A DNA stretch of 64,000 nucleotides from Comamonas sp. NLF-1-9 (lineage in GTDB: Bacteria; Pseudomonadota; Gammaproteobacteria; Burkholderiales; Burkholderiaceae_C). The notes below the pieces were generated by a model. That model did no database searches. It saw nothing but the letters and a program-made list of their open reading frames with translations, and had not been told where the DNA came from. Positions 572 to 22,283 of the stretch are shown here, in pieces. A program made the position numbers and the translations under genes. The DNA is taken from assembly GCF_019195435.1 (NCBI RefSeq), contig NZ_CP078069.1, forward strand, positions 2,666,001 to 2,730,000, in the 5' to 3' direction. Numbering within the stretch: position 1 is the stretch's first letter; each line of letters starts with the position of its first letter.

Positions 572-606
572 GGCGGGCATCGTCGTGCCCGCGGGCCGCC
601 AGTATC

Positions 607-623
607 AAATGACGGCGGTCAGT
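607..623 (-). promoter_or_regulatory. Candidate late promoter element upstream of the protease gene
   Basis: On the minus strand this reads ACTGACCGCCGTCATTT, one mismatch away from ACTGACCCCCGTCATTT at 14681-14697 ahead of the lysis/head block. The bases just upstream are also alike (AGT, then 4-5 bases, then ACT). Mu has C-dependent promoters ahead of lys and ahead of gene I, so this pair fits Plys and PI. It lies between the Mor/C stop codon and the protease start. That the Mor/C protein binds here is inference. Confidence 0.55.
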
Positions 624-629
624 GATTCA

Positions 630-1082
630 CTACAACGGCAGCTCGCGCTGGCGCCGGGCGCGTTCGGCGCGCAGCCAGCGCGCCTCGATGCGGCGCACGT
701 GCCGGTCGGTGATGCCCACCAGGCGCGCCACGGCCACGTAGTCTTGCCGATGCTGCGCCAGCAGCGCAATCACGCGCGCGGCCATGGCGCTTCTCTGAAT
801 GTCCGCGCCCTGGTTGATGTACAGCTGCCCGCCGCCCAGGTCGGCAGCGATGCCCAGCACCAGCTCGCAGGCCAGTTGCGCGCCCGCATCATCCTCCAGG
901 CCCTGGGCGCCGAACACCAGGCTGATGTAGAGCGAGCGCGCCAGCTCGCGCCAGGAGTCGGGCCAGGCCTGGGTGCGGTTTTCCAGCGGCGCCAGCTGCG
1001 CGCTGGAGAGCTCGGCCAGCTCGGGGCGCTCGGCCAGCAGCGCGCCGGGGTCTTTGAGGGTGTCGTCTTGCACCGTCGTCAT
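630..1082 (-). CDS. Mor/C-family late transcription activator
   Basis: This 150-residue protein has the Mor/C layout. A variable N-terminal half is followed by a conserved segment around residues 88-98 (LYINQGADIQR) that matches the dimerisation/recognition region. A C-terminal helix-turn-helix ends in GITDRHVRRIE. Mu Mor and C activate middle and late promoters. It is the last early-type gene of the leftward operon and starts 4 bases after the stop of the gp16 gene. Only one Mor/C protein is visible in the window, so it may do the late-activation job of C. The two ACTGACC motif copies (607-623 and 14681-14697) are its likely targets by inference. Confidence 0.8.
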   Translation of the reverse strand: MTTVQDDTLKDPGALLAERPELAELSSAQLAPLENRTQAWPDSWRELARSLYISLVFGAQGLEDDAGAQLACELVLGIAADLGGGQLYINQGADIQRSAMAARVIALLAQHRQDYVAVARLVGITDRHVRRIEARWLRAERARRQRELPL

Positions 1083-1086
1083 GGCG

Positions 1087-1494
1087 TCAGCCCTCCTGCC
1101 CGCGCTGCTGCCAGCGTTTGAGCGCTTCGATCAGGCGGCTGAGCTGGGGCCAGTCGCAAAAGCGCAGATCCTCCATGCCGTTTTGGCGCTTGATCCAGGC
1201 GCGCAAGGCGGGCGCGGAGGTGTCGGCAATGATGCCGTCGCGCCCGAGCTGCTTCCACAGCGCCCAGACCTTGCGCTCCATGGGTGTGGCGTCCCAGACG
1301 GCGCGGTCGGGCGTGGTGGCCTGGGCGGGTTCGGCCAGTTTTTGCAGGTGGCGGCGCACCCGTGCCTGTTCGCTGGCGCTCAGGGCCTTGGCGCTGCTGT
1401 ACCCCGTCAGGTGCAGCAGCAACGCACGGTAGTCGTCGTCGCTCATGGCGAGCTTGTGCTTGAGCACGTGGATGGCGGCAAGGTGGCGGGCCAT
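1087..1494 (-). CDS. Mu gp16-family protein (DUF1018)
   Basis: The protein is 135 residues long and recognisable as the Mu gp16 family that precedes mor in Mu-like phages. An N-terminal block reads HVLKHKLAMSDDDYRALL, a middle GYSSAKALSASEQ lies around a helix, and the C-terminal ends WPQLSRLIEALKRW. Its exact function is not known; a regulatory role is usually assumed. I chose the internal ATG at 1492-1494 because GGAGGT lies just ahead of it. A longer in-frame ATG exists at 1524, but it would overlap the previous gene further. It sits 4 bases after the upstream stop and just before the Mor/C gene, as in Mu. Confidence 0.8.
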   Translation of the reverse strand: MARHLAAIHVLKHKLAMSDDDYRALLLHLTGYSSAKALSASEQARVRRHLQKLAEPAQATTPDRAVWDATPMERKVWALWKQLGRDGIIADTSAPALRAWIKRQNGMEDLRFCDWPQLSRLIEALKRWQQRGQEG

Positions 1495-1498
1495 GGCT

Positions 1499-1759
1499 TT
1501 ACCTCCAGGCAGTGGGGCCGCCAATGAGGGCGGCTATGTAGTCGCTGGCGCGGCAGATGCGCACCGGCGGGCGGCGGGCGCTGCGCGTGCGACTCAGGCT
1601 GTCCGGGCCGGGAGCGCACACGCGGCACAGGTCGGAGATCTCGCCGCGACGCAGACCACGGCGCACACGGGTGAAGAAGCCCGTATCCATCGGCAGCCAT
1701 TCGCGGCATTGGCGGCAACGCTGGTAGAGGCCGAATTCGGTGTGGTCCAGTTCCGCCAT
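1499..1759 (-). CDS. Small cysteine-rich phage protein
   Basis: This 86-residue protein has CRQC near residue 15 and CRVC near residue 45, which could form a single zinc-binding knuckle. The rest is basic (RVRRGLRRGE). It lies in the early operon, 1 base after the stop of the preceding gene (TGACATG), so translation is probably coupled. I do not recognise a named family. A nucleic-acid-binding role is plausible from the charge and CxxC pairs, but this is inference. Confidence 0.6.
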   Translation of the reverse strand: MAELDHTEFGLYQRCRQCREWLPMDTGFFTRVRRGLRRGEISDLCRVCAPGPDSLSRTRSARRPPVRICRASDYIAALIGGPTAWR

Positions 1760-1760
1760 G

Positions 1761-2507
1761 TCAGACCTGCAGGCAAGTGAGCACGAAGCGCATGCTGGGC
1801 AGCTCCAGCGTTTGCGCCAGCAGCGTGCTGGCGTTCACACGAGCAACGGCAAGGGTTTGCCCGTCGCGCCCGGCAAGCGTGGGCGCACTCCACACGCCGC
1901 CTGCGTGATGGATGCACCCGCCGGCTTGCACGCGGCGCAGGAACCAGCCGCTTTGCTGGGGGCTCAAGCGGCCACGGTAGGCGTCCCAGGCGGCGAGCAA
2001 ACTGCGCTCGTCCAACGGCCAATAGCCGTCGCGGATGCGCCGCGCAGTTCGGTAGGAGACACCCAGCACGTGCGCCACCGCGCGCAACGGGGTTGCAGTG
2101 GCGAACGCACGCAAATCTGCCGGAGCCGTTTTACGGCCCTCTGGCGCGTTCAATGACGCCAAGGGTGCCGTGGCATGTGCAGCCCCGGCTGCGGCGCTTG
2201 CAGGTATCGGCAAATTGATCCCTGCGCCATTGGCGGGCGTTGCGCCCTCACCCCCACCGTCTCCCAGGGGGCGAGGGGGCAAAACCGGCGCATGGCGCAC
2301 GCTGATCGTGCCGCGGCGGATTTGCTCGGTTCTGAGCGCCTGCGCGCGGCTTTTCTCGGCGTTGGTGATGTGAAAGCTGCCCGCACGCGGGGCGAGGTTG
2401 ACGCGGCGCGCCCGGGCGGGGCGCTGGCCCCCGCCCTTGCCTTCCCGCAGCGGGGGAAGGGGTGAAGCCGGGTGCGCCAGCTCGAAGGCGTTGGGCGGGC
2501 GGCTCAC
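1761..2507 (-). CDS. Phage protein with HTH-like segment and two in-frame repeat insertions
   Basis: The reading frame uses a GTG start at 2505-2507 that overlaps the stop of the preceding gene (GTGA), giving 248 residues. The N-terminal half is low complexity and contains two stretches, PLPPLREGKGGG and LPPRPLGDGGGEG, that are translations of the GC-rich palindromic repeat found at 2425-2470 and 2245-2285. The C-terminal half looks like a folded domain with an HTH-like segment (VAHVLGVSYRTARRIRDG), so it may bind DNA. The function is unknown. Removing both repeats would leave a shorter protein, so the ancestral gene was probably smaller. Confidence 0.6.
   Translation of the reverse strand: MSRPPNAFELAHPASPLPPLREGKGGGQRPARARRVNLAPRAGSFHITNAEKSRAQALRTEQIRRGTISVRHAPVLPPRPLGDGGGEGATPANGAGINLPIPASAAAGAAHATAPLASLNAPEGRKTAPADLRAFATATPLRAVAHVLGVSYRTARRIRDGYWPLDERSLLAAWDAYRGRLSPQQSGWFLRRVQAGGCIHHAGGVWSAPTLAGRDGQTLAVARVNASTLLAQTLELPSMRFVLTCLQV
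2245..2285. repeat. GC-rich palindromic repeat inside a prophage gene
   Basis: The stretch CCCTCACCCCCACC, a short gap, CTCCCAGGGGGCGAGGGGGC has the same layout as copies at 2425-2470, 3845-3927 and 26903-27036: a C-rich arm, CAG/CAA centre, then G-rich arm. It is read through in frame by the gene on the minus strand. Confidence 0.65.
2425..2470. repeat. GC-rich palindromic repeat inside a prophage gene
   Basis: CCTTCCCGCAGCGGGGGAAGG forms a near-perfect stem and is followed by GGTGAAGCCGG. It is the second copy within the same prophage gene, and is translated in frame as a Pro/Gly-rich stretch. Confidence 0.65.
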
Positions 2508-3055
2508 GCGGCGGCCTCCAGCGCGTCGCCCTTGGTCAAGTCCTTGAGCACGGCGGCCACGGCTTTTTCCACCTCGCCGTCCACGCTCTTGATCAGCACC
2601 TCGTCGCAGTCGGCCGATACCGTGACGCCCAGGCGCTTCAAGGTGCGCGCGTCGAGCTGCTCCAGCGCCTTGGCTACCGGGCGCTCGGTGGTGGCCACCA
2701 GCAGCGCGCGGTGCTCGGCGCTGAGCTCGCCTTCGGCAATCAGTTTGTCGATGCGGGCAATGAGCTGCGCATCTTGCGCCCAGCTCATCTTGCCCTTGGA
2801 TTTTTGCAGGCCGTATTTCAGGCCCGCCACCACCTGGGTGCGCGGGCGCTCGAACAGGGGGCGGTTGCCCTCGATGAGTTCCTTCAGGCGGTTGTGCTCG
2901 GCGGCCACGCGCCGCGCCGCCTGGCGCACGGCGGGCATGGATTGCTGCCTGAGGGTTTCCACGTCGCCATGCAGCGCACGCAAGACATCGGCGAGCTGCT
3001 CGCGGCAGGTGGCGAGCTTTTGCGCGTGGTTCATCAGCTCCAGTTGGGTAGTCAT
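2504..3055 (-). CDS. Possible Gam-like host-nuclease inhibitor
   Basis: The protein has 183 residues. The first 70 are helical and charged. A central segment (GLKYGLQKSKGKMSW) and the following helices resemble the Mu Gam layout, where helices lead to a VSWR-like strand and a C-terminal helix pair. Mu Gam binds DNA ends and protects phage DNA from RecBCD-type nucleases. The assignment rests on pattern only and could be wrong. The gene overlaps its upstream neighbour by 4 bases and the next gene by 4 bases, so it is part of the coupled early operon. Confidence 0.5.
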   Translation of the reverse strand: MTTQLELMNHAQKLATCREQLADVLRALHGDVETLRQQSMPAVRQAARRVAAEHNRLKELIEGNRPLFERPRTQVVAGLKYGLQKSKGKMSWAQDAQLIARIDKLIAEGELSAEHRALLVATTERPVAKALEQLDARTLKRLGVTVSADCDEVLIKSVDGEVEKAVAAVLKDLTKGDALEAAA

Positions 3056-3678
3056 TGGCTCTCTCCTTGGTTGGCAGCGGGATCGGTGGGGGTGGCGGAT
3101 GCACCGCGCTGGCGCGCGATGGCGGCTTTCATGGCGCGCACGGTGGGGCTGGTGCCGGCGGGCGTGGTGGGCGCTGGTGAAGGCAGGGGCACCAGGCCGG
3201 GCACAACGTCCAGCACGGTCACGGCGGCGCCCTTGACATGGGCGGCGCGGGCACTCTTGCGGGTGGCTTCGCGCTCAGCCTCGGCTGCGGCCTCATGCTT
3301 GTCGGCCATGCGCGCCAGAATGGCGTGCAGGTAGCCGTGGCCCTTCATGGGCAGCTCCAGGGCGCCGGCGTCGCGCGCGGCCAGCATCTGGTCTATGGCG
3401 TCGGCCCAGGCATTCAAGGGTGCGCTCCAGTCGCGCCCCTTGTGGGTGATGGCGCGCCGCTCCAGGTCGGGCAGCAGCTCCAGCAGCAGCTTGATCTTCT
3501 TGCGCGCGGTCAGGCGCTGGCGCGCGGGCTGAAACAGTTGCACGTACTGCAAGACCCTTGCACCCAGGGGAATGCTGACGGCGGCCAGGCGCGAGAGTGC
3601 GCGCTGGTCGGCCTCGTGGGCGAAGAGCGTCATCAGGTCGAGCTCGGCGCCGCAGGTGGGGCAGGCAAGGTCGCTCAT
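3052..3678 (-). CDS. Unrecognised early phage protein with N-terminal CxxC
   Basis: This 208-residue protein begins MSDLACPTCGAELDL, which looks like half of a zinc ribbon. A helical region of about 120 residues follows, and then a Pro/Ala/Thr-rich tail that is probably disordered. I chose the ATG at 3676-3678 because it overlaps the previous stop by four bases (ATGA). Extending upstream would cross the neighbouring gene in another frame. I do not recognise the family. Position in the early operon suggests a role in replication or regulation, but nothing in the sequence proves it. Confidence 0.6.
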   Translation of the reverse strand: MSDLACPTCGAELDLMTLFAHEADQRALSRLAAVSIPLGARVLQYVQLFQPARQRLTARKKIKLLLELLPDLERRAITHKGRDWSAPLNAWADAIDQMLAARDAGALELPMKGHGYLHAILARMADKHEAAAEAEREATRKSARAAHVKGAAVTVLDVVPGLVPLPSPAPTTPAGTSPTVRAMKAAIARQRGASATPTDPAANQGESQ

Positions 3679-4076
3679 GCGCGCGGCTCCTGAGGCAGGC
3701 GCGCCACGGGCGTGGCCAGCAGCCAGCGCGGGCCCAGCTGGCGCACCGCCCGGCGCCAGGCGCGCATGTTGTGCAGCTGGGTGGCGCGCGGCACCTCGGG
3801 CACGGCCCAGAGCTGGCGGGCGTGGGGGAGCGTGGGGGTGTGCTGGCCCCCACCCCGGCCCTCCCCCAGCGGGGGAGGGAGTAAAGCGGGGCCATCCTCC
3901 AGCGGGGGAGGGAGTGAAGCGGGGCCCTGGGCATGGGCGCGGGCCAGCCGCGTGAAGTCGCGCGCCTGCTCCATCAGGGGCAGCAGGGCACGCGCCATCT
4001 GGCAGGTGCAGCCGGGGCCGGGGCGCTGAATGCACAGGCCCGCTTCATCGCAGGTACGCAGTTGCTGGGTGTTCAT
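3675..4076 (-). CDS. Small early phage protein carrying a double repeat insertion
   Basis: The 133-residue frame starts MNTQQLRTCDEAGLC at an ATGA overlap with the preceding 57-codon gene. Cysteines near residues 9, 16 and 24 might bind metal. Residues about 50 to 77 are a Pro/Gly-rich stretch (LPPPLEDGPALLPPPLGEGRGGG) translated from a tandem copy of the palindromic repeat at 3845-3927. The C-terminus (NMRAWRRAVRQLGPRWLLATPV) looks like ordinary protein again. I do not recognise its function. The repeat probably entered an existing gene without breaking the frame. Confidence 0.55.
   Translation of the reverse strand: MNTQQLRTCDEAGLCIQRPGPGCTCQMARALLPLMEQARDFTRLARAHAQGPASLPPPLEDGPALLPPPLGEGRGGGQHTPTLPHARQLWAVPEVPRATQLHNMRAWRRAVRQLGPRWLLATPVARLPQEPRA
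3845..3927. repeat. Tandem pair of GC-rich palindromic repeats
   Basis: Two head-to-tail units each contain CAGCGGGGGAGGGAGT followed by AAAGCGGGGCC or GAAGCGGGGCC. The first unit also has the full C-rich left arm (CCCGGCCCTCCCCCAGC). The unit matches 2425-2470. It lies inside the coding region of the 133-residue prophage protein. Confidence 0.7.
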
Positions 4077-4246
4077 GCAGGCCTCCGCAGGCAGATGGCG
4101 GCCACGGCGCGGGCGCCGGGCCAGTCGGCCAGGGTTTGCAGCACGGCCTCGCAGCCGTCGGCAAACAGGCCGGGAAAGCGCAGGCGTTGGCCGCTGGCCA
4201 GCGTCACGCGGATGAGATAGGGGCGCATGGTGGTGGCGGCGTTCAT
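4073..4246 (-). CDS. 57-residue early phage protein
   Basis: This short frame starts at ATG 4244-4246, 3 bases after the stop of the transposition ATPase gene, and ends in TGA overlapping the ATG of the next gene. It begins MNAATTMRPYLIRVTL and ends AAICLRRPA. The tight coupling on both sides is the main evidence that it is real. The composition suggests a small beta-strand/helix fold. Function is unknown. Confidence 0.55.
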   Translation of the reverse strand: MNAATTMRPYLIRVTLASGQRLRFPGLFADGCEAVLQTLADWPGARAVAAICLRRPA

Positions 4247-4249
4247 GGT

Positions 4250-5254
4250 TCAGCACCCCGCCACGCATTGCGCATCCACCTTGGGCCAGCCTGCGGCAGC
4301 GGCTGCGTTCATCGCCCGGCTGACAAGGTTGTGCACGGCCAGCGGGTAGCAGGTGCTGATGCCGCTCTTGCTGCCGCGCGGGGTGTAGATCAGGCGGGCG
4401 CGGATGGCGTCGAAGGCGTCGGGCGCAAAGACTTGATCGAGCTTGAGGTCGAAGCGCTTGAACTTGTGCTCCAGGTAGGTTTCGAGCTCGGCGTCCAGCG
4501 GCTGCAGCTCCACCAGCTCGATGCGCTGCATCACCTCGCGCACTTCCGGGTTCTGGCTGTGCAGCAGGTGGCGCAGCTCGGGCTGGGCCACCAGGGCCAC
4601 GCCCAGCAGGCGCTGAAAGCCGTCGCGCAGCTCGATGAAGCGCTTGAGGTGCTTGACGGTGGCCGTGGGCATGCAGTGCGCCTCGTCGATCACCAAGAGG
4701 TGTCTGCGCCCGGCGCGCCGGCTGGCCTTGAGCAGCTGCGCGAGCTGGTCGAACCGGGCCTGCGGGCTGCTCTTGATCTTCAGACCCGGGTCCAGCGCGT
4801 AGGCGATGGCCTCGGCAATGTGCGTGGCGCGCAGCGTCTTGCCCTTGGCGTCGCTCGCTTCCATGCCCAGCACGTAGGGCTTGATGATGAGCACGTCGCG
4901 GCCTTCGTCGATCAGGCGCTGTTCGAGCTCGTCCATCAGCGTGGTCTTGCCCGCGCCGCTCTCGCCCACCAAGCCGATGAAGCCGTGGTGCCGTGCGGCG
5001 TCCAGCAGCGCGGCGCGGGCGTAGCGGGTGGCGGCGCTCTGAAACACGTCGTCGCGGCTTTCCACGTCATTGACGAAGGGGCTTCGCGGCAGGCCGAAGG
5101 CCTTGCGCGCTTCCAAGGTGATGGGAGTGAATTGCAGTAACATGGGCTCATCCTCAGTGGTTGGGTTTTGGGATTCGGCTTCTTGGGGACCGGCCTCGGG
5201 CGTTGGCGCGCTCGGGGCCTTTTCTTTGCGGGGTAGCCGCTGGGCGGCGGGCAT
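4250..5254 (-). CDS. Transposition protein B, AAA+ ATPase (BcepMu TnpB/ExeA-like)
   Basis: This 334-residue AAA+ ATPase carries a Walker A motif (GESGAGKT, around residue 97) and a Walker B motif (LLVIDEAH, around residue 185). A sensor-like segment GVALVAQPEL follows. In Mu-like phages the B ATPase binds target DNA and delivers it to transposase A. It lacks the separate N-terminal DNA-binding domain of Mu B as far as I can see, and looks like the ExeA-like ATPase type of BcepMu. I chose the start at 5254 because AAGGAG lies 8 bases upstream. An internal ATG at 5143 also has a ribosome site and cannot be excluded. It follows the transposase gene by 14 bases. Confidence 0.85.
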   Translation of the reverse strand: MPAAQRLPRKEKAPSAPTPEAGPQEAESQNPTTEDEPMLLQFTPITLEARKAFGLPRSPFVNDVESRDDVFQSAATRYARAALLDAARHHGFIGLVGESGAGKTTLMDELEQRLIDEGRDVLIIKPYVLGMEASDAKGKTLRATHIAEAIAYALDPGLKIKSSPQARFDQLAQLLKASRRAGRRHLLVIDEAHCMPTATVKHLKRFIELRDGFQRLLGVALVAQPELRHLLHSQNPEVREVMQRIELVELQPLDAELETYLEHKFKRFDLKLDQVFAPDAFDAIRARLIYTPRGSKSGISTCYPLAVHNLVSRAMNAAAAAGWPKVDAQCVAGC

Positions 5255-5268
5255 GGCTGGGTCTCCTT

Positions 5269-7101
5269 TCAGGATGCGACCACGCGCAGCGTGGCCTTGG
5301 TGAGCAGGCGCGCCTTGAGCGCGTCGAGCTGGTCTTCGGGCACGCCCTCGGGGTGCCAGGCGCGCACGCTGGCGTGGCGCTCTGGCGTGGGCGGCACGCC
5401 GCCCGCGGTGAGCCAGGCGGCGGCCTCAAAGTGGGTGAGCACGCGCGCGGCGCGCACGGGGGCGCTGGCGCCGGGCTGCACGGCGGTGCCGCGCAGCGGC
5501 AGCCAGGTGCGCTCGGGCGCAAGGTCGATGCGCTTGCCCGGGTCGATGCGCCCGCCAAAGGGCACCGCGCGCGCCTTGTGTGCGGCTTCGGCGGCTTCGT
5601 CGCTGCTCGCCTGGTAGGCGTGGCGCAGCAGCTCCTTGCGGTGCGTCTCAAGCTGCGTGTCGGCTGGCCGCGCCCAGTCTTCGCCGATGGTGTTGGCGTC
5701 CAGGCGAAAGCCGCCGGCGTCGCGCGCCACCAGCGGGGCGTCGATCAGGCTTTCGTGGCCGTCGGCGTCTTTGGTGACGATGGTGCAAGCGTCTTGCTGG
5801 TACACGCCCCAGGTCACTTGCAGGCTCTCGCCCACCATCACGCCAGGGACTTGGCGCACGTCGTATTCCTGCCCGGCGAAGCTTACGGTGAGGGTGACGC
5901 TGACCTTGCGGGCCTCGGGCGTGTGGGTGAGCAGGCGCTGGCAAACCTCGGGCGCGGGGGCGGTGCGCAGCTGCTCAGCGGTGATGGTGCGCCAGCAGTC
6001 GCTGCGGCTTGTGCGGTGGCGCGTGTGCTCGCGCTCGGCGTTGAACCAGGCGGCCCAGCGCTCGGCTTGTTGGTTGAGCTCGTCGAGGTCTGCCACGGGC
6101 CGAAAGCGCAAGCCGCTTTCAAAGCTGCGCTCGATGAGGTTGCGCGCCTGCTCGACCTGGCCGGTGGCGCGCGCGTTGCCCGGCGCGTGGGCGATGAGCT
6201 GCACGCCCAGGCGGCGCGCCAGGTTGCCAAACAGGCCGCTGGTGTTGGCGCTGCCCATGTCCATCATGAGGATGCGCGGCACGCCGTGGCAGGGGTCACC
6301 CGGGCGCGGCTGGATGAAGTGGATGAAGCTGTCGGCCAGGTTCTTGCCGCTCTCCGCGCCCATGACGTAGTGCACGGCGATGGAGCCGCTGTAGTGGTCG
6401 GTGCGCTCGTAGCTCCAGACGCGGTCGGCCTCGATGCGCTTCAGGTTGGCGGGCTTGTTCTTGTAGAAGCGCTCGCGCTCCATGACCTGCAGGCCGGCCT
6501 CGCGGTGGTTGGCTGCGTGCAGGTAGTACAACACGCACAGGCTGGCGTCGATCTGCCAGACGTGGTTGGGGTGCAGGCTTTTGAGCTCTACCGCCGGCGC
6601 CGGGCGGTTGATCTGGTCGGGGTGCAGGCCGTGGGCGCGCAAGCTGCGCGCCACGGCGCTGGCGGACAGGGGCAGCAGCTCGCCGGTGGCGGGGTCGAGC
6701 CGCTGGGCGCGCAGCTCGCCATTGGCGCGCAGGATTTCCAGCGCCTCGCCGATGGACATCAGGCGCTTGCCGGTTTTGCGGTGGCTCAGCTGCAAGAAGG
6801 CGCTGAGGGTGAGCGCTTCTTCACGGGTGAGCGCGCTGCGGCCGGCGTCGGCACGCTGCTTGCGCTGCGGGGCCACGCGCACCTCGGCCAGCCAGCGGTG
6901 CAGCGTGGGCAGGCTGCACGCGAGCTGGGCGCAGGCGCTGGCGTAGACGGCGCCCTTGCCGCCGGGCGGCGCGGCGGCGGCGCGCTGGCTGACTTCAACC
7001 AGCGCGGGCACGAGGGCGGGGTTCAGGGCCATGTCGGGCGGCGTGGGGCGCTGCGGCGTTGGGACGGCGGGCGGCAAGCCGGGGTTTACTGCCCGCCCCA
7101 T
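5269..7101 (-). CDS. Mu-type DDE transposase A
   Basis: The protein has 610 residues. The DDE catalytic core is visible: HVWQIDASLCVLYY (first Asp), RILMMDMGSANTSG (second Asp) and GQVEQARNLIERSFE (Glu). An N-terminal helical DNA-binding region precedes it. A beta-barrel-like region and a Mu-type C-terminal tail follow. It catalyses strand cleavage and transfer for integration and replicative transposition of the phage genome, using the B ATPase encoded immediately downstream. It overlaps the preceding gene by 16 bases. All three catalytic residues are intact and the frame is unbroken, so the enzyme could be active. Confidence 0.93.
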   Translation of the reverse strand: MGRAVNPGLPPAVPTPQRPTPPDMALNPALVPALVEVSQRAAAAPPGGKGAVYASACAQLACSLPTLHRWLAEVRVAPQRKQRADAGRSALTREEALTLSAFLQLSHRKTGKRLMSIGEALEILRANGELRAQRLDPATGELLPLSASAVARSLRAHGLHPDQINRPAPAVELKSLHPNHVWQIDASLCVLYYLHAANHREAGLQVMERERFYKNKPANLKRIEADRVWSYERTDHYSGSIAVHYVMGAESGKNLADSFIHFIQPRPGDPCHGVPRILMMDMGSANTSGLFGNLARRLGVQLIAHAPGNARATGQVEQARNLIERSFESGLRFRPVADLDELNQQAERWAAWFNAEREHTRHRTSRSDCWRTITAEQLRTAPAPEVCQRLLTHTPEARKVSVTLTVSFAGQEYDVRQVPGVMVGESLQVTWGVYQQDACTIVTKDADGHESLIDAPLVARDAGGFRLDANTIGEDWARPADTQLETHRKELLRHAYQASSDEAAEAAHKARAVPFGGRIDPGKRIDLAPERTWLPLRGTAVQPGASAPVRAARVLTHFEAAAWLTAGGVPPTPERHASVRAWHPEGVPEDQLDALKARLLTKATLRVVAS

Positions 7102-8317: not shown

Positions 8318-8559
8318 GACGCGCCTCCAGCGGTGAGCGCCACGGCGATCCCGAGGGCCTCGCGCTCGCAGCGCAGCTCGGCCAGGATGGCCAGATCGAC
8401 GATGTGCGTCTCGCACTTGCGCGCGAGTGCCAGGCAACGGCGGCGCGGGAACTCGGCCAGGGACTGCGCGCTGCGCGTGGTGTCTGCGGCGCGCTCCAGC
8501 CATCGGCCACGGCGCTGCGCCGTCTCTTGCGCGGCCAGGAAAAGGGCGGTGTCGTTCAT
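8314..8559 (-). CDS. 81-residue early phage protein
   Basis: The frame starts MNDTALFLAAQETAQRRG at 8559 and ends at 8314, with four-base overlaps on both sides. It is helical throughout and rich in Ala, Arg and Glu, with two cysteines near residues 45-52. I do not recognise the family. The operon coupling supports a real gene. Confidence 0.55.
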   Translation of the reverse strand: MNDTALFLAAQETAQRRGRWLERAADTTRSAQSLAEFPRRRCLALARKCETHIVDLAILAELRCEREALGIAVALTAGGAS

Positions 8560-8837
8560 GCCGCCGCTTTCAGCTGCTGGCGTGCCAGCTCCATGCCGAC
8601 GTGCCAGCCGGCGCGCCAGGCATCGTCCTGGCAACTGCCGCTGGGCCAGGTGCTGGACTGTGCCTGCAGGCCGTGGCGGCTCAGGATGCCGGCTTTGGCG
8701 CCCTGCTTCCATTCAGGGCTGCGCGAGCAGGGCTCGATCTCGGACTCGTAGAGCTGGCGGGCGGCGCGCGCGTGCTTGCGCTGGGCCTCGGTCAAAGCGG
8801 CCAGGGTCGCCGCGGCGGGGTGGGTGTGGGGCGTCAT
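8556..8837 (-). CDS. 93-residue early phage protein
   Basis: The protein begins MTPHTHPAAATLAALTEAQR and ends WRAGWHVGMELARQQLKAAA. It has a four-base overlap with the genes on either side. Two cysteines (CSRS and SCQDD) are present. Family and function are not recognised. Confidence 0.6.
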   Translation of the reverse strand: MTPHTHPAAATLAALTEAQRKHARAARQLYESEIEPCSRSPEWKQGAKAGILSRHGLQAQSSTWPSGSCQDDAWRAGWHVGMELARQQLKAAA

Positions 8838-9310
8838 TCTTCAAACTCCAGGTGGGGCTGGTCAAAGGCGGCCACGTTGGCGTGGTGGTAGGCCACTTGC
8901 TCCAGGTGCTGGCGCAGGGCGGCCAGCGTGGCCTCGGGGTCGGCGTCGGCGGGCGTCGTATAGAACCGGGTGAGCAGCTGCAGCGCCTGGGCCCAGCTGG
9001 CGTTGACGGCCAGCAGGTCGACGCCTTCGACCTTGCGCCCCAGCGGCAGGGGAATGGCCATGCGTCCGGCGGTGGCGGCCAGAAAGTCGCTGGCGTAGTG
9101 CGCGCCGCAGGTGTGCTCGTAGGCGGGCAGCAGCACCAGCGGCATGCGGCCGGTGGCCAGCCATTTGTAGAGGGCGTCGTGGCTGGCGCCCATGCGGTCG
9201 GCGATACGCTCCACGCTGAGGTTGCGCCGGGCCTGGGCGTATTCCTTGCACAGGCGCAGCGCGTGCACCAGGCTGGTGGGGCGCAGGTGTTTCCAGCGGG
9301 CGGCGGTCAT
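8834..9310 (-). CDS. Early phage protein with helix-turn-helix
   Basis: The likely start is the ATG at 9308-9310 (MTAARWKHLRPTSLV), giving 158 residues. Residues about 31-57 form a helix-turn-helix (LSVERIADRMGASHDALYKW). A longer helical region follows, and the acidic C-terminus ends HLEFEE. Similar proteins occur in Mu-like prophages of Burkholderiales, but I know no function. It is the first gene of the tightly coupled leftward run. A longer in-frame ATG at 9373 would extend it towards the rightward gene that starts at 9410. Confidence 0.6.
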   Translation of the reverse strand: MTAARWKHLRPTSLVHALRLCKEYAQARRNLSVERIADRMGASHDALYKWLATGRMPLVLLPAYEHTCGAHYASDFLAATAGRMAIPLPLGRKVEGVDLLAVNASWAQALQLLTRFYTTPADADPEATLAALRQHLEQVAYHHANVAAFDQPHLEFEE

Positions 9311-9409
9311 TGGAAGCCCCCCACGCGCGGGGCGTCCGAAAGTTTTCTGCCTTGGAAACGGCTTTGCAGGCACAGTGCGGCCATGTCAACCGGATGAATG
9401 GAGAGGTGC

Positions 9410-9811
9410 ATGGCCATCAACCCCGAAACCACCGAATGGGTGCGCGCGCTGCTGCAGCAAGAGATTGACCGAGCCGTGACGCCACTGCGCCGAGAGCTTG
9501 ACGAGCTCGACGACTGGGCCAATGGCGTGTTTGCGGCGCTGCAGGATGTGCTGATCCCGCTGCTGAAGGCGCAGCCGGAGCTGGCGCGAACGCTGCAGCC
9601 GCTGTGGCAGCTGGCTGCCCAGCGCCATGAGCGGCTGGAGCAGGAGACCAGCCAGGCAGAGGGTTTTCATGAGACGGCCGCGCTGCTGGAAGCGCGCAAG
9701 ATGCTGTACCGACAGCTGGCGCTGCTGGGGCTGTGGCCGGGCGTGGATGCGCAGGAGGCGGCCCGTCAGACGCTAGCGCGTGCAGGATGGCAAGCGCCTC
9801 CTGATGTGTGA
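9410..9811 (+). CDS. Helical acidic phage protein on the opposite strand of the early operon
   Basis: This 133-residue protein begins MAINPETTEWVRALLQQE and is nearly all alpha-helix, with many Glu, Leu and Arg residues. The ribosome site GGAGAG lies just upstream of the ATG at 9410. It lies between two leftward genes but is read rightward. A GC-rich frame on the minus strand also crosses this region, but its composition (Ala/Pro runs) looks like a shadow. I do not recognise the family. Confidence 0.6.
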   Translation: MAINPETTEWVRALLQQEIDRAVTPLRRELDELDDWANGVFAALQDVLIPLLKAQPELARTLQPLWQLAAQRHERLEQETSQAEGFHETAALLEARKMLYRQLALLGLWPGVDAQEAARQTLARAGWQAPPDV

Positions 9812-9904
9812 GCAGGGTTTTCCCGTTGCGGCGGGTGGACGCGATCACCATTGCTATGGCGAGCGCCGGGCGTGTAGGATGCTGCCGGAACATGGCACTC
9901 CCCT

Positions 9905-10153
9905 TCACGCGACGTGGCTCAGGCGCAAAGCGCCGGCCTCGGCCTTGAAGACCTGGCCGCGCTTGAGGCCGAGCTCTACGGCGATGTTGTGCGCGTCGCC
10001 GCGCAGACACTTGAGGCGCGGGTTGTGGTCGTCGTCGTTGACGATGGCGATCACCATGTTGGGGCTGTAGCCGCGATCGCGCGCCCAGGCCGAGTACGGC
10101 ACGCCGCGAGCGGCGAACTCGGCACGGATCTGCTGGCGGGTTTTAAGGGGCAT
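9905..10153 (-). CDS. BcepMu gp16-family DNA-binding protein (Ner-like)
   Basis: The protein has 82 residues and starts MPLKTRQQIRAEFAARG. The segment VPYSAWARDRGYSPNMVIAIV is a helix-turn-helix, and the C-terminal part (CLRGDAHNIAVELGLKRGQVF) completes the pattern of the BcepMu gp16 phage-associated family. It is the first gene of the leftward early operon, directly after the divergent promoter region, where Mu has ner. By position it probably tunes early and repressor transcription. The ATG at 10151-10153 was preferred over one 14 codons upstream because the family begins near the LKTRQQ motif. Confidence 0.75.
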   Translation of the reverse strand: MPLKTRQQIRAEFAARGVPYSAWARDRGYSPNMVIAIVNDDDHNPRLKCLRGDAHNIAVELGLKRGQVFKAEAGALRLSHVA

Positions 10154-10220
10154 GGCTGTGGTCCGGTTGTGGTGCAGCAGTTGGCGCTGTTGCATGAATG
10201 GTTGGGTTTTGGTGAAGTGG

Positions 10221-10250
10221 ATTATGGTGGAACAATTCCACCATCGTCAA
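10221..10250 (-). promoter_or_regulatory. Leftward early promoter with overlapping repressor operator
   Basis: On the minus strand TTGACG (10245-10250) and CATAAT (10221-10226) are 18 bases apart and form a good sigma-70 promoter facing the early operon. A perfect inverted repeat TGGTGGAA-CAA-TTCCACCA (10225-10243) fills the spacer and touches the -10 box. A further half-site TGGTGGAA is at 10276-10283, and a second palindrome GTGAAAAATTCAC lies at 10260-10272 over the repressor start. Binding by the S24-type repressor or the gp16-like protein is inferred. Confidence 0.65.
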
Positions 10251-10259
10251 GGGGTAGGC

Positions 10260-11108
10260 GTGAAAAATTCACCTTTGGTGGAAATCAAACTCCGGCTTGG
10301 GGTGACACAGGAGCGCCTGGCTGAGGCAATGGGCGTGAACCTGGACCGTGTCAAGAGCCTTATGGGAGGAAAGGCCCAGCACCTGCGCCCCCCCGAGATC
10401 GCAGGATTGGTGAATGAATTTCACCTTAATCCGGACTACTTTTTGAATCCTGAGGAACCAATGTTCGGTAGCGGCTCAAGACCCGATGAGCCCGATGCCG
10501 CACACGCCCAGGCGGCTCGGGTTTCTGACTTGGTGGATTTACTGCCTTTTGATGCAGGCAGCCGCTCGCGCATCAAGGCGGCAATGCGGGGCGATTCGGC
10601 AGAAGATCTGAAGACTCTCGCGCAAGCCCTTGCCGGCAGGCACCCCAGCGCCGCCGAGGCCAGGCCAGGCTATTCGATCAATACATGGTCTGAGTTCGTG
10701 CAGGTTCCGCGCTATGACATTCGCGCAAGTGCCGGCGCAGGTGCACTGGTGGACCAGGAGAACGTGCTTGATTACATGGCGTTTCGGGTTGACTGGCTGC
10801 ACAACGTCCTGGGGCTCAACGCCAAACGACTGGCGCTGATCGACGTCGATGGTGACAGCATGGCGCCCACGCTGACGCATGGCGACATGATTCTTGTGGA
10901 CACAGCTGAAGGCAACGGCGTGCGCGACGGCATCCACGTGATCAACCTGTGTGGGCGCCTGCTCGTCAAGCGATTGCGCCCTCGGTTGGACAGATCGATT
11001 GAGGTGATCAGCGACAACGTGCACTACGGCTCCGAGCTGGTGCCCGCAACACAGCTGGAGCAATTGAAGGTCGTGGGCCGCGTGGTCTGGCAAGGCAGGC
11101 GGGTGTGA
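10260..11108 (+). CDS. Phage repressor, XRE-type HTH plus S24 (LexA-like) peptidase
   Basis: From a GTG at 10260 (preceded by AAGGGG) the protein has 282 residues. The N-terminus (LGVTQERLAEAMGVNLDRVKSLM) is a helix-turn-helix. The C-terminal half is an S24 self-cleaving domain with the serine in VDGDSMAPTL and the lysine in LLVKRLRP. An ASAGAG segment at about residue 158 is typical of such repressors. This implies control of lysogeny with SOS-linked inactivation, as in lambda CI. An ATG at 10224 in frame would also work, but it lies inside the leftward promoter and operator, so the GTG is preferred. It is transcribed divergently from the early operon. Confidence 0.85.
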   Translation: MKNSPLVEIKLRLGVTQERLAEAMGVNLDRVKSLMGGKAQHLRPPEIAGLVNEFHLNPDYFLNPEEPMFGSGSRPDEPDAAHAQAARVSDLVDLLPFDAGSRSRIKAAMRGDSAEDLKTLAQALAGRHPSAAEARPGYSINTWSEFVQVPRYDIRASAGAGALVDQENVLDYMAFRVDWLHNVLGLNAKRLALIDVDGDSMAPTLTHGDMILVDTAEGNGVRDGIHVINLCGRLLVKRLRPRLDRSIEVISDNVHYGSELVPATQLEQLKVVGRVVWQGRRV

Positions 11109-11128
11109 TACTTGGATAGCGAGGTGGC

Positions 11129-11674
11129 GTGACAGGTGCGAAGGGAGGCCTGCTGCCAGGCGTCAAGGGCGCTTTCGGCAGTGTGGAATACGAGCTCGAC
11201 CGCGAGGCCACACGCTTGCGGCGCGCTGGTGACATGGACGGCGCGATTGCCGTGCTGCGCAGACGCAAGGCCATCTTCGATTGGCAATGGCAAGACGACA
11301 AGCTGGCGAAGTACTTGCAGCGTGCAGGCTGTTTCGAGGAGGCTATGGCCGAGATTCAATGGTTGCTCGATCACAGCCAAGCCCGAGCGCGCCGGGCATT
11401 GGGGCACCAGCCCGTCAGTCTGCAGCAGTCGCAGCACGCCGCGTATTGCGCACGCCTGCACGCCAGCGCCGCGCTGATTTGCAAACGCGAGGGGCGCGCC
11501 GATTTGCAGGCGCAGCACCGCCGCCTGGCCGAACGTTATGGCGCCATCTGGCAGCGCCTGGAGCCGATCGCGCGCGCAGATGCGAAAGAGGCCTGCCTAC
11601 GCCGACAAGAAGAAATCGCCGAGATGCGAAGGCGGCTTCGCGCAGACCGGAGTCGCTCGGATCGAGCTGCCTGA
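11129..11674 (+). CDS. Unrecognised helical (TPR-like) protein
   Basis: The frame starts at a GTG at 11129 after GAGG and encodes 181 residues. It is almost all helix, with paired segments such as GDMDGAIAVLRRR and CFEEAMAEIQWLL that look like tetratricopeptide repeats. The C-terminus is Arg- and Glu-rich. It starts 20 bases after the repressor stop and may be co-transcribed with it. The family and function are not recognised. A scaffold or regulatory partner role is only inference. Confidence 0.55.
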   Translation: MTGAKGGLLPGVKGAFGSVEYELDREATRLRRAGDMDGAIAVLRRRKAIFDWQWQDDKLAKYLQRAGCFEEAMAEIQWLLDHSQARARRALGHQPVSLQQSQHAAYCARLHASAALICKREGRADLQAQHRRLAERYGAIWQRLEPIARADAKEACLRRQEEIAEMRRRLRADRSRSDRAA

Positions 11675-11699
11675 ACAACGAACCGCGACAGGAGGTGTG

Positions 11700-11879
11700 A
11701 TGCGATTTGCCGTTTTGCTTTTTCTGGGCTGCGCGGCCCTTGCCAGCGCCAACGCCTGGGCCATCAACAAGTGCACGGGACCGGACGGCAAGGTAGTGTT
11801 TCAGGACTTGCCGTGCGCTGGGCAAGGCGAGCAGATGTTAATCAAAATTGCAAAGGAGGCAACGTGGCACGCACGGTAA
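11700..11879 (+). CDS. Short DUF4124-like exported protein
   Basis: This 59-residue protein starts MRFAVLLFLGCAALASANAW, a good signal peptide. It continues with INKCTGPDGKVVFQDLPC, the core of a DUF4124 domain (periplasmic, two cysteines), and then runs out in an unrelated tail. The ribosome site GGAGG lies just upstream. It shares an 81-base near-identical stretch with the start of the 174-residue DUF4124 protein at 13202-13726. It is therefore probably a truncated duplicate. Its 3' end overlaps the next gene by 16 bases. Confidence 0.6.
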   Translation: MRFAVLLFLGCAALASANAWAINKCTGPDGKVVFQDLPCAGQGEQMLIKIAKEATWHAR

Positions 11880-12742
11880 CCATCAACTTGTTCGACGTGA
11901 CCCGAGGCACCAAAACGCAGGCGCTGGCGCAGACGCTGCAGGAATACGCGGCGCTGTCGATCGAGCAGCGCCTGCGCGACGATGTGCGCCTTGACCAAGT
12001 GCAGCAGATAAAGGCGGATGCAGTGCTGAAACACGAGGCGTTTCATCTGGACTTCGCCAAGGCGCGTCCCACTGGTCCGGGCCGCATGCCACCATCGCGC
12101 CCCGTGGCTGACGTGGGGCTGGAGCATGACGAACTTTTTGGAGAGGAAACGGCGGCGCTGTATTTGCCGCACAAGAACTGGTTGCTGACGCTACACAACC
12201 AGTATGGCGTCGGCCCGGCGCGCATGGCGAGCTACTTCAATGCGCTCGATCCGGGTAGCGCCGAACGGCATTTTGACTACGAAATACGTCCGCGGATTGA
12301 TCAGCATGCGCTGCAGCGAATGAAATCCATGAACGGGTTTTCGCATGTGGACGTGATCGCCAGCGTGGGGGCGTTTGAGGATCTTACGGATGACGTGAGC
12401 GAATCGGTTTGGCAAGCTGCGGAATCAGTGCGGGCCATGCGTGTGCAGTTGCGTCTGTCAGCAAACCCGGCGCATCAGCGTGGGCGCAAGTTGAATATGA
12501 GGGCGGTGCGCGAGTTCATTCAAGGACTTCTCAGCCGTGACGATGGGGTCGACAAGATCGAGCTCAAGAGCGCCGACGAGCAACTCGATCAGAACGACCG
12601 GTTGATCGATTTGATTGAACAAAAAATACGTCTGCGTTACCCTGCCACGCAACTCGATGTGCTCAACCTCCGCTACACACATGATTCCAAGATCGCCCTC
12701 TTGCGCCGCGCCTGCAGCCACTGGCTGCAGAGGCTGGAGTAG
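11864..12742 (+). CDS. DUF6731-like protein, possible accessory defence component
   Basis: The GTG at 11864 follows AAAGGAGG and gives a 292-residue protein beginning VARTVTINLFDVTRG (read as Met). The part EETAALYLPHKNWLLTLHN, then GVGPARMASYFNAL and the following strands fit the layout I associate with DUF6731 proteins, a family without known function. No catalytic motif is evident. The next gene, 4 bases on, encodes a four-segment membrane protein, so the two may work together. It lies in the accessory region between repressor and lysis genes, where temperate phages often carry exclusion or defence genes. That role is inference. Confidence 0.55.
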   Translation: MARTVTINLFDVTRGTKTQALAQTLQEYAALSIEQRLRDDVRLDQVQQIKADAVLKHEAFHLDFAKARPTGPGRMPPSRPVADVGLEHDELFGEETAALYLPHKNWLLTLHNQYGVGPARMASYFNALDPGSAERHFDYEIRPRIDQHALQRMKSMNGFSHVDVIASVGAFEDLTDDVSESVWQAAESVRAMRVQLRLSANPAHQRGRKLNMRAVREFIQGLLSRDDGVDKIELKSADEQLDQNDRLIDLIEQKIRLRYPATQLDVLNLRYTHDSKIALLRRACSHWLQRLE

Positions 12743-12746
12743 CGCC

Positions 12747-13202
12747 GTGCCCACGCCGCTGCAGCTTGAACGACATGCGCCGTGGCTGCTGGGACTGGCG
12801 TGTGCGTTGGCATGGTGGCGGCTGGGTGGTGAAATCCCGGCGGCGATTGCCAAGGAGCTTTTGGCGGCGCTGCTTTCGGCGGCTGCGATCTGCGCTGGCT
12901 TCTTGACCACGGCGCTGACGGTGGTGCTGCCCATGGGCGGCACGGTCATTGGTCGTCAGCTCAAGCGCCGTGGAAAGTTGCACCTGCTGCACGGCTATGT
13001 GCGCGCTGCCATCTATGGCGCGCTGGCTCTGGTTGCCTTGTGCGTGCTGGGTTTTTTTCAGGTGCCATCGGGCGGCACGGGAGCGCTTTGGGCGTCGAGT
13101 TTGATCATGGGCGTGGCGATGTATTGCGCCGCCGCGATGGTGCGCGTAGTGGAAATTTTGATCAAGGTGATGCTGGCGATGTCGGAGGAGGAAAGGCCGT
13201 GA
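12747..13202 (+). CDS. Small integral membrane protein, partner of the DUF6731-like gene
   Basis: From a GTG at 12747 the protein has 151 residues with about four hydrophobic segments, near residues 11-27, 36-62, 83-101 and 109-133 (for example LLGLACALAWW and AAIYGALALVALCVLGFF). Between segments 2 and 3 is a basic loop (RQLKRRGKLH). It starts 4 bases after the DUF6731-like gene and overlaps the next start by one base, so it is in the same operon. I do not recognise a family. A membrane effector or exclusion protein is a possible reading. Confidence 0.6.
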   Translation: MPTPLQLERHAPWLLGLACALAWWRLGGEIPAAIAKELLAALLSAAAICAGFLTTALTVVLPMGGTVIGRQLKRRGKLHLLHGYVRAAIYGALALVALCVLGFFQVPSGGTGALWASSLIMGVAMYCAAAMVRVVEILIKVMLAMSEEERP

Positions 13203-13726
13203 TGCTGCGTGTGATTCTGATGTTTGCCTTCATGCTGCTAGCCTCTCCCACTTGGGCCATCAGCAAGTGCACCGGGCCGGATGGCAAGGTGGTGTTTCAA
13301 GACCGCCCCTGCGACGGGCAAGGCGAGGAGATCGTGGTGCGCCCGGCCAGCGGACCTGAACGGGCCGCTGTACCTCCTGCGGCAACATCAGAGCCTGCGG
13401 CCGCGGCCGCGGCGCCAGCGCCGGCGCCCGTCCCGGTAGCCGCGCCGACGGCACCGCCGCCACCTGCGGCCCCCGCGGTCTCACGCGTCGACCAGTTCGC
13501 CCAGCGCTGTCTGGACTGGTACAAGCCGCTGCTGCGTGACCCGGCACACGCCTATTTCACCGAACCGAAGTTTGCTGATCGCCGCGTGCTGCGCATGCTG
13601 CTGCACGCCACCAATGGCTTTGGCGGCGTGGTCGTGCGCCAGGCCGCCTGTGATTTTGACAACGGCAAGCTCGACGAGAACTGGACCAAGATTCAGGCTA
13701 AACGGCTGGAGTGGGTGGTGGATTGA
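13202..13726 (+). CDS. DUF4124 domain exported protein
   Basis: This 174-residue protein has a signal peptide (MLRVILMFAFMLLASPTWA), a DUF4124 core (ISKCTGPDGKVVFQDRPC) and a Pro/Ala-rich linker of about 45 residues. A C-terminal domain of about 75 residues follows, with RCLDWYKPLLRDPAHAYF and a final pair of Cys. It likely acts in the periplasm. DUF4124 proteins occur widely in betaproteobacteria, with no firm function. It begins within the TGATG overlap of the upstream membrane protein. It is the longer partner of the truncated copy at 11700-11879. Confidence 0.75.
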   Translation: MLRVILMFAFMLLASPTWAISKCTGPDGKVVFQDRPCDGQGEEIVVRPASGPERAAVPPAATSEPAAAAAAPAPAPVPVAAPTAPPPPAAPAVSRVDQFAQRCLDWYKPLLRDPAHAYFTEPKFADRRVLRMLLHATNGFGGVVVRQAACDFDNGKLDENWTKIQAKRLEWVVD

Positions 13727-13801
13727 GCGGGCGGCGGGCGTTCAAGTTGTCACGCCATGGGACAATGAGCCATTAAGTGTCCCCGTTTCTTTCAGGACGC
13801 A

Positions 13802-14650
13802 ATGGGAGCCAAGCTAATGTCATTCGACCTTGATCATTTCGAGAGCGTGGCACGTCAAAACGGTGTGCGCTACTGGTATGCGCACGAATTCATGCGCGAG
13901 CTTGGCTATGAGTCGTGGCAGGCGTTTCATGGAGTGATCCTGAAAGCGCAGGCCAGTTGCGCGCGCTTGGAGATGGATACATTCTCGGAGTTCATTCCCG
14001 ACACCTACGTGGCCGACGATGGTGCTGAGGTGCGCACGGTCAAGCTCACGCGTTTTGGCTGCCTGCTGGTGGCGTTGCATGCCGACGATCGCAAGCAGGA
14101 GGTAGCAGCGGCGAAGGCGGCGCTGGCTTCGATTGCCGATCAACTGATCGCGGCGCAGTTGTCGCAAAATGATCTGGGGCGAATTGAAACGCGAGACGAT
14201 CTGAAGGCAGCGGAGCTGGCGCTGAGTTCCGCAGCCAAGCGAGCGGGGGTGCAAAACCATGAGCACGCGTTTTTCAAAGACGCGGGAATTCGCGGAATGT
14301 ACAACCGCAGTTTGCAAGAACTCAAGCGTTTGCGCGGCTTGGGCGAGCGTGATGTGCCGTACGACTTCATGGGACTGACGGAGTTGGCGGGTAATTTGTT
14401 TCGCGTGACGCAGACGGCCGAACGCCTGAAGCAAACTCCCAATGTGGGACTGCGCAATGCACAGCGTACGGCGCACGCCGTAGGCACGGAAGTACGCTCG
14501 ATGATGGTGCAAAACAGCGGGGTGCCACCGGAAGCGTTGCCGGTGGAAACCAACATAGGCGATGTCAAGCGACAGTTGCGCAGCACGGCCAAACAGATGA
14601 AGAAACTGGACGCCCCAAAAAAGACTCGATACGCGCGCAAGAAGTCTTGA
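13802..14650 (+). CDS. dinD: DinD/BRO-family protein (DNA damage-inducible protein D-like)
   Basis: The protein has 282 residues from ATG 13802 (or 277 from ATG 13817). The N-terminal half is BRO-like (WYAHEFMRELGYESWQAF). The C-terminal half closely follows E. coli DinD, notably FMGLTELAGNLFRVTQTAERL and the ending GDVKRQLRSTAKQMK. DinD is SOS-induced in E. coli and has been linked to RecA modulation. BRO-type proteins in phages can act as antirepressors. An inverted repeat TTGTC-N9-GACAA lies upstream at about 13747-13765, but is not a standard LexA box. It follows the DUF4124 gene and ends just before the late promoter motif. Confidence 0.8.
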   Translation: MGAKLMSFDLDHFESVARQNGVRYWYAHEFMRELGYESWQAFHGVILKAQASCARLEMDTFSEFIPDTYVADDGAEVRTVKLTRFGCLLVALHADDRKQEVAAAKAALASIADQLIAAQLSQNDLGRIETRDDLKAAELALSSAAKRAGVQNHEHAFFKDAGIRGMYNRSLQELKRLRGLGERDVPYDFMGLTELAGNLFRVTQTAERLKQTPNVGLRNAQRTAHAVGTEVRSMMVQNSGVPPEALPVETNIGDVKRQLRSTAKQMKKLDAPKKTRYARKKS

Positions 14651-14680
14651 TCACTGAGTACATCGCTTGGCATAGTCAAT

Positions 14681-14697
14681 ACTGACCCCCGTCATTT
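14681..14697 (+). promoter_or_regulatory. Candidate late promoter element ahead of the lysis/head block
   Basis: ACTGACCCCCGTCATTT here matches 16 of 17 bases of the minus-strand motif at 607-623. It lies about 27 bases ahead of the first gene of the lysis and head block. By analogy with the C-dependent Plys of Mu it may be read by the Mor/C protein. No strong -35 box is visible, as expected for an activator-dependent promoter. Confidence 0.55.
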
Positions 14698-14723
14698 AGC
14701 CTCTCACGCCCCCGCGCGGCACC

Positions 14724-17197: not shown

Positions 17198-17208
17198 GGG
17201 GCGCGCGC

Positions 17209-20821: not shown

Positions 20822-20829
20822 CGCCGCGC

Positions 20830-22158: not shown

Positions 22159-22283
22159 GGTACACGCAGGGGATCGAGCTCCCTCGACTGTCTGGATATC
22201 GGGGTCACCTTTCAGGCGGCTATGGGCCCAGCGCCAGCCGCTTTCGCGCCCTGCGTGCAACCCCATTGTAAAAAAGAGCGCCC

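Follow-up and report, generated by a model that had tools for sequence, protein, structure and literature searches.

Candidate Mor/C-dependent late promoters with predicted leaderless starts in a B3-related prophage of Comamonas sp. NLF-1-9

The 64,000-nucleotide stretch of the Comamonas sp. NLF-1-9 genome analyzed here (contig NZ_CP078069.1, positions 2,666,001 to 2,730,000; hereafter the window) carries a Mu-like prophage in which a 17-base motif recurs ahead of late genes. Our analysis indicates that this motif is probably the operator of the single Mor/C-type activator encoded by the prophage, and that it belongs to late promoters that would give rise to leaderless late mRNAs; we put the probability of this reading at roughly three in four. 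The functional unit exceeds 17 bases and comprises an operator, a -10-like element, an inverted repeat and an ATG at fixed spacing. Across relatives of the prophage, the operator, the -10-like columns, the spacing, the ATG-only starts, the lack of Shine-Dalgarno (SD) words and the inverted repeat all recur.

A first-pass annotation of the window had described two copies of the motif that differ by one mismatch and possess similar flanks. When we searched the window for ACTGACCNCCGTCATTT and tolerated up to three mismatches, exactly these two copies were recovered, both as perfect matches; they differ from each other at a single base (ACTGACCGCCGTCATTT in copy c1 and ACTGACCCCCGTCATTT in copy c2; Table 1). 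Shuffled versions of the window are expected to contain 0.25 matches, and two or more were present in 4 of 100 shuffles, so that the loose motif count by itself is only mildly unusual. In the 3.03-Mb genome, the same tolerance yielded 13 matches, compared to 7 for the pattern read backwards, and the best three (zero, zero and one mismatch) fall within 19 kb, all of them inside this prophage. The third copy (c3; CCTGACCCCCGTCATTT, one mismatch; G000:C1:2661840-2661856(-)) is located 4.1 kb beyond the left edge of the window on the strand of c1, and precedes the tape-measure gene (904 amino acids). The annotation had thus undercounted the copies by one. With c1 before the protease gene, c2 before the lysis block and c3 before the tape-measure gene, the copies mark the head, lysis and tail genes of the prophage.

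All three copies are followed by an ATG 26 bases past the 17-base motif and by a second ATG at 35 bases, an extension of the flank similarity noted earlier. Each contains a 12-base core of the form TGACCNCCGTCA (TGACCGCCGTCA at 610-621 in c1; TGACCCCCGTCA at 14683-14694 in c2), followed by an xAnnnT element at offsets 25-30 and by ATG at offset 38. The xAnnnT elements read GACGAT in c1 and CACCAT in both c2 and c3, and an inverted repeat, imperfect in c3, surrounds each of them. The earlier ATG, nine bases before the second, falls in this -10-like/repeat region, and the corresponding offset 29 in 50 operator-bearing relatives is occupied by ATG in 10, by GTG in 17 and by TTG in 3. Since the earlier ATG is part of the -10/repeat region and is often not ATG in relatives, the second ATG is the likely start codon, which most likely places the start codons at window positions 571(-) and 14733(+) and at L010:11804(-). 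In 39 aligned sites, within a region that consists mostly of G and C, we found A at offset 26 in 35 sites, A at offset 28 in 32, T at offset 30 in 36, G at offset 31 in 32 and C before the ATG in 36. If this T is read as -7 of a sigma-70 -10 element, the operator is centred at -43.5, and the A of the ATG falls on +1 (offset 37) or +2 (offset 38). In the passages of PMC4390567 that deal with the Mu promoter Pm, the Mor site is a 16-bp dyad with 5-bp repeats and a G/C-rich 6-bp centre, which is centred at -43.5 and replaces the -35 element. The agreement with this value was not built into the operator matrix described below. At 18 bp from the -10 element, c2 and c3 possess TTAGCC (3/6 of TTGACA) and c1 possesses TTGATA (5/6).

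Lack of conservation in related phages had been named in the first-pass annotation as the outcome that would speak against the motif. Use of the Mor protein as a query gave no match in the phage records or genome contigs, and we therefore used the transposase and the protease as queries instead. From viral contigs, 80 transposase loci were kept, and three further scans with the protease added 123 loci; 166 loci had a protease match, 163 regions (window included) had enough upstream sequence, and 104 of these were non-redundant. The exact motif, with up to two mismatches, was absent from loci L012-L091, which looked at first like a refutation. We then compared the regions upstream of the protease and lysis genes within each phage. 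In 6 of 18 phages, window included, these regions share a stretch that surpasses the 95th percentile of the cross-phage controls; in the remaining 12 the shared stretch stayed at or below it. The shared stretches are palindromes such as TGAAACGCTTCA, TAAAACGCTTTA and TAAAGCGCTTTA, in register with the window motif. What is conserved is the place before the protease, lysis and tape-measure genes and mostly not the letters: the operator sequence drifts among relatives and the layout of palindromic operator, -10-like element and ATG persists.

A first matrix scan, in which 207 of 312 hits were without a mapped gene start nearby, was dropped. Since a scan with control offsets separated poorly (153 hits at the expected offset vs 74-151 at eight others), we used a start-independent operator test, that is, a symmetric matrix blind to start codons with a threshold of 8 (95th and 99th percentiles of shuffled maxima: 6.6 and 9.1). 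This matrix accepted 50 of the 104 non-redundant protease regions. ATG was present at offsets 36, 37, 38 and 39 in 2, 20, 15 and 2 of these operators, respectively (39 in all), and neither GTG nor TTG occupied any of these offsets in the 50. A composite matrix that demands the ATG gave 139 hits in the training collection, compared to none in reversed sequence; 89 of these are non-redundant. The tape-measure copy c3 is among the hits of this matrix with a score of 18.8. We also checked the fixed composite matrix on genome-contig loci: of 80 that were fetched, 18 were set aside, which left 62 without overlap with the training loci. Without a start-codon demand it produced 41 hits, a set that counts one site twice (L220, L221) and comes from a matrix reaching the base just before the ATG; ATG stood at offsets 36-39 in 27 of them and GTG or TTG in none. 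Hits with an open reading frame (ORF) of at least 50 codons were present in 18 of the 62 loci. Read backwards, the same loci gave 13 hits without the ATG demand, a number to be taken with the reminder that a reversed palindrome can still score. As a separate observation, an alternating GCGCGCGCG run is present between operator and ATG in 16 of the 89 composite sites (L016, L021, L027, L030, L033, L043, L056, L065 and others), by eye mostly lysis or tail-side ones; it is possibly a DNA-shape element.

The window copies join this family via L093, L095, L096 and G230. L095 and L096 keep the window-type operator at the protease gene with one mismatch. G230, a same-family genome whose Mor protein is 62% identical, carries TGACTCTGGTCATTTA before the protease gene and TGACGGCGGTCATTTA before the lysis operon, with the ATG 38 bases past the 12-base core in both cases. 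Mor relatives at E <=1e-10 are present in 5 of 399 family genomes, the organism's own genome counted, and three of the other four were examined. By a strict filter G262 and G231 each possess one site, and the tape-measure site was not found in any of the three genomes (G230, G262, G231). Among the 80 transposase loci, lysis genes were found in 37 and are directed away from the transposase in every one of them; the protease was found in 42, always on the transposase strand, and each of the 16 loci with both displays the layout of the window.

We also assessed whether Mor and operator sequences vary together. Among the 166 loci, 84 (window included) carry Mor next to the protease; 79 of these had an operator by our filter, and 38 remained at less than 75% identity. 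All 19 proteins with the Mor residue M, Q, T or V go with A at operator base 2, and 18 of the 19 with other residues go with G. The class of the helix residue and operator base 2 therefore agree in 37 of the 38 proteins, and in all 38 after one register correction; the exception, L018, reads G in the palindromic register, which was set by hand. These data show that operator and Mor vary together, contact not being implied.

The initiation regions of the family lack SD words. We found none in the 39 operator-selected sites (median duplex energy -1.8; Fisher p 8.7e-6 vs controls) and one in 84 composite-selected sites (median -1.7; Fisher p 1.7e-8 vs controls), in contrast to 65 control genes from the same loci, 22 of which have such a word (median -5.3; 30 of the 65 are capsid genes). 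Because it scores bases 22-36 past the operator, the composite matrix might of its own accord select against SD words and for the repeat. Both tests were accordingly repeated on the 39 sites whose selection rested solely on the operator matrix and an ATG at offsets 36-39, the only set free of selection on the bases tested; the results held. In 24 of 49 protease sites, the interval from the upstream stop to the conserved motif contains no in-frame start but the ATG; in 43 of 49, no further start comes between the ATG and this motif. The two marks of leaderless genes that we looked for, absence of an SD word and a start that is ATG only, are thus both present. A start codon at or next to +1 without an SD sequence is known from the leaderless cI mRNA that phage lambda transcribes from PRM. 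At the prophage-family sites, by contrast, leaderless starts are predicted as a group rule for activator-dependent late operons.

The inverted repeats end at or close to the start codon (Table 1). Stems of at least 5 bp that end at most 3 bases from the ATG were present in 23 of the 39 operator-selected sites, where 200 shuffle sets gave 4.35 on expectation and 11 at most. Among the 84 composite-selected sites, 46 had such a stem, against an expectation of 8.5 and a maximum of 16. The repeat arms vary in sequence across relatives and keep their complementarity. In read-through RNA, the predicted energy for opening the ribosome site surpassed that of shuffles at 34 of the 37 operator-selected sites with enough sequence for energy prediction (median +4.7 kcal/mol) and at 82 of 86 sites in a wider set (median +5.2), while a leaderless 5' end has a predicted opening energy of about 1.5. 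The repeat is thus predicted to span the late start and to occlude the start codon in read-through RNA. In the passages of PMC3014915 on phage T4 gene e, a fold in the early read-through RNA covers the start site and blocks translation, and the late promoters are situated where the 5' strand of this fold is encoded. The late transcripts of T4 gene e keep their ribosome-binding site, whereas none was seen at the prophage-family sites.

Judged from the sequences, late transcription of this prophage might proceed as follows. A Mor/C dimer would bind the dyad (about 5-6-5 bases, here ACTGA-CCNCCG-TCATT) about 43.5 bp before the transcription start, occupy the place of a -35 element and bring the host RNA polymerase to a weak -10 (xAnnnT). 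Three late promoters would be served in this manner, those of the lysis/packaging, head (protease) and tail (tape measure) genes. The predicted first base of the transcript is the A of the ATG or the base preceding it; with the start at or next to the ATG, the first gene of each late operon would be translated from a leaderless or nearly leaderless mRNA. RNA reading through from mor into the protease gene, or from the repressor side into the lysis operon, would fold the repeat into a hairpin that blocks the start codon. The late RNA would start inside the repeat, lack the 5' arm and be translated. The protease start lies 58 bases past mor on the same strand, and the repressor-side genes are oriented towards the lysis operon. 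That the repeat silences read-through RNA is the weaker part of this proposal and draws on the analogy with T4 gene e. Its broad form, according to which late proteins of the B3-related branch come only from RNA begun at the late promoter since the repeat renders longer RNA untranslatable, we regard as a tentative idea, possible rather than probable.

The activator assignment agrees with Mu in several respects. By our reading the prophage shares with Mu a Mor/C-family activator, a dyad operator, promoters for lysis and protease genes and use of the host polymerase (PMC4390567, PMC4287176, PMC4461284); the prophage encodes its predicted activator, carries sites before lysis, protease and tail genes, and possesses a GC-rich dyad near -43.5, as counted from the predicted -10 and the ATG. 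Mu C acts at four late promoters, Plys, PI, PP and Pmom. Unlike the prophage, Mu has separate Mor and C proteins, and its PP precedes P and not the tape-measure gene, whereas c3 precedes the latter. The proposal of late promoters activated by Mor/C, made in the first-pass annotation, is supported in part: our computations favour late-promoter elements with Mor/C as the likely activator, with the amendment that the unit extends past 17 bases.

The transposase of the prophage matches 58 annotated phage records, 51 of which are Pseudomonas phages, mainly B3-like ones; identities are 49.1% to B3 (genus Beetrevirus), 50.0% to Fc02 and 50.2% to JD18. Closer by transposase are Burkholderiales prophages with up to 72% identity, in genomes such as those of Giesbergeria, Extensimonas and Rhodoferax. 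No Burkholderia phage is among the 58 records, and BcepMu was absent from the collection under AY539836 and NC_005882. The structural genes of B3 are annotated as similar to those of BcepMu, and the label BcepMu-type that had been attached to the prophage is not established. As in B3-like phages, the early operon ends with gemA-mor and the lysis operon is divergent from it. In B3 the lysis genes are succeeded by those for head and tail on a single strand; here protease, capsid and tape measure (L010:9090-16571, -) lie beyond mor on the strand opposite to the lysis/packaging genes (window 14733-22739, +), an order also seen in relatives. The prophage is thus B3-like by transposase with a gene order of its own.

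B3 and Fc02 resemble the window in possessing palindromes ahead of the lysis, protease and tape-measure genes and in the geometry of the protease site, but their operator letters are wholly different (TTTTCG...CGAAAA). In B3, TTTTCG-N6-CGAAAA precedes all three genes, and the derived pattern, which is palindromic and hence matches on both strands, occurs only at these three places in the phage; Fc02 carries TTTT[CA]GNNNCTTCCAAAA at the same three genes. At the protease gene of both phages, 43.5 bp separate the middle of the palindrome from the A of the ATG, and the inverted repeat abuts the ATG; in Fc02 this ATG is at position 20152 of MH719189. At their lysis and tape-measure sites a -10-like element is in place by eye and the ATG lies further down. 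The annotated protease start of B3 (L215, 19835-19889) is a CTG at 19857, 30 bases upstream of the rule-fitting ATG at 19887; this CTG falls between the operator and that ATG, and the gene has probably been annotated with too early a start. According to the parts of PMC9936078 on its RNA sequencing data, Fc02 has three late clusters, the first of which begins at holin-endolysin, and mor is the last gene of the early operon. The passages of that paper on transcription do not treat late promoter sequences, and its main text contains neither the word 'leaderless' nor the term 'late genes' (PMC9936078). In a literature search, with most subscription journals outside its scope, none of the papers retrieved dealt with the late promoters of B3-type phages or with leaderless late mRNAs in them.

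Several observations weigh against the proposed leaderless late promoters. Just over half of the non-redundant protease regions (54/104) are without an operator above threshold. The window protease site itself scores only 1.8 on the family operator matrix and is missing among the composite-matrix hits; the loci scanned did not include c2. The TTGATA of c1 is a possible -35 element. Late genes of Mu carry annotated ribosome-binding sites. In B3 and Fc02 only the protease site reads as leaderless, and the lysis and tape-measure genes would have leaders. The Mor/operator class changes only once on the tree, so that the match of residue and base is weak evidence of contact and is not counted as independent. 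Finally, the compensating changes in the repeat would also fit a transcribed leader hairpin with a start further up.

Among the alternatives, one assigns the repeat a role as DNA, either as a cruciform or as a second protein site tuning promoter melting, without any function in RNA. We consider this somewhat unlikely; it is compatible with leaderless late promoters driven by Mor/C in everything except the silencing of longer RNA. The repeat is centred on the -10, and the alternating GCGCGCGCG runs mentioned above would suit such a role, but the DNA reading has no known partner, while folding of the RNA would account for the repeat stopping at the ATG and has a precedent in T4. A second alternative keeps Mor/C promoters but moves the start upstream of the repeat, with a leader hairpin before the SD-less ATG protecting the message or recruiting the ribosome. 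That the repeat sequences differ while their arms stay complementary is what an RNA structure would produce; nevertheless, the A..A.T columns, read as a -10, would put +1 at the ATG and the operator centre at -43.5, as at Mu Pm, and the high predicted opening energy of the ribosome site in such a leader (median 16.9 kcal/mol) should hinder translation; we regard this option as distinctly unlikely. That the motif serves as a repressor operator or as an end recognized by the transposase is very improbable. The inverted orientation of the two window copies on either side of the early region would fit, but c3 lies on the strand of c1 ahead of the tape-measure gene and the sites of relatives keep a fixed distance from late-gene ATGs, and we rejected both functions as contradicted by this layout. 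A chance repeat of 17 bases, to which the shuffles with two matches at three mismatches might point, has next to no standing in view of three copies at homologous places that are retained in near relatives.

The genes around the two window copies (Table 1) correspond to the earlier description of a head protease, a holin/endolysin block and a single Mor/C protein; the latter is the sole Mor match in the whole genome. Downstream of c2 we found genes for a small CxxC protein, a holin, an endolysin, a spanin-like protein, terminase and portal. The first protein of the lysis operon is of a CxxC...GFGxC type and has no PHROG match; similar small CxxC ORFs are present in L052, L046, L219, L243 and L304, and in a relative genome the homologue sits behind the same kind of site. 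Elsewhere in the window, 27598-31035(-) and 33148-36582(-) are near-equal ORFs of 1145 and 1144 amino acids, with long ORFs opposite each.

Table 1. Positions of promoter parts and prophage genes within the window
Feature	Position	Strand	Basis or remark
Start codon of the head maturation protease gene, predicted to be leaderless	569..571	-	Gene crosses left window edge; L010:15501-16571
Inverted repeat GCGGGCA-CGACGA-TGCCCGC, across the -10 of c1 and separated from the start codon by one base	573..592	-	Direct reading
Predicted -10 of c1, GACGAT	579..584	-	A at -11, T at -7 of proposed numbering; direct reading and family columns
Motif copy c1, ahead of head protease gene	607..623	-	
Mor/C-family activator	630..1082	-	Pfam Mor PF08765, 29.8 bits vs cut-off 24.9
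GemA homologue, directly upstream of mor in early operon	1087..1524	-	
Transposase A, used for placing the prophage	5269..7101	-	
Motif copy c2, ahead of lysis/packaging operon	14681..14697	+	
Inverted repeat GCGCGGCA-CCA-TGCCGCGC, across the -10 of c2 and reaching its ATG	14714..14732	+	Direct reading
Predicted -10 of c2, CACCAT	14720..14725	+	Direct reading and family columns
First ORF of lysis operon, CxxC protein of 67 amino acids, predicted leaderless ATG at 14733	14733..14936	+	
ORF with holin	14764..15330	+	
Endolysin, transglycosylase type	15327..16055	+	

The promoter unit described here offers a candidate target for phages with a single Mor/C protein, together with a rule by which late promoters can be found in uncharacterised prophages, and it predicts a family of leaderless, activator-driven phage messages. 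With the promoter fused to the start codon and the repeat acting as a lock, one activator would set both the timing of late transcription and which RNA is translatable. Should this lock be true, it would contribute to keeping the lysis genes silent in the lysogen despite the repressor-side genes that point at them.

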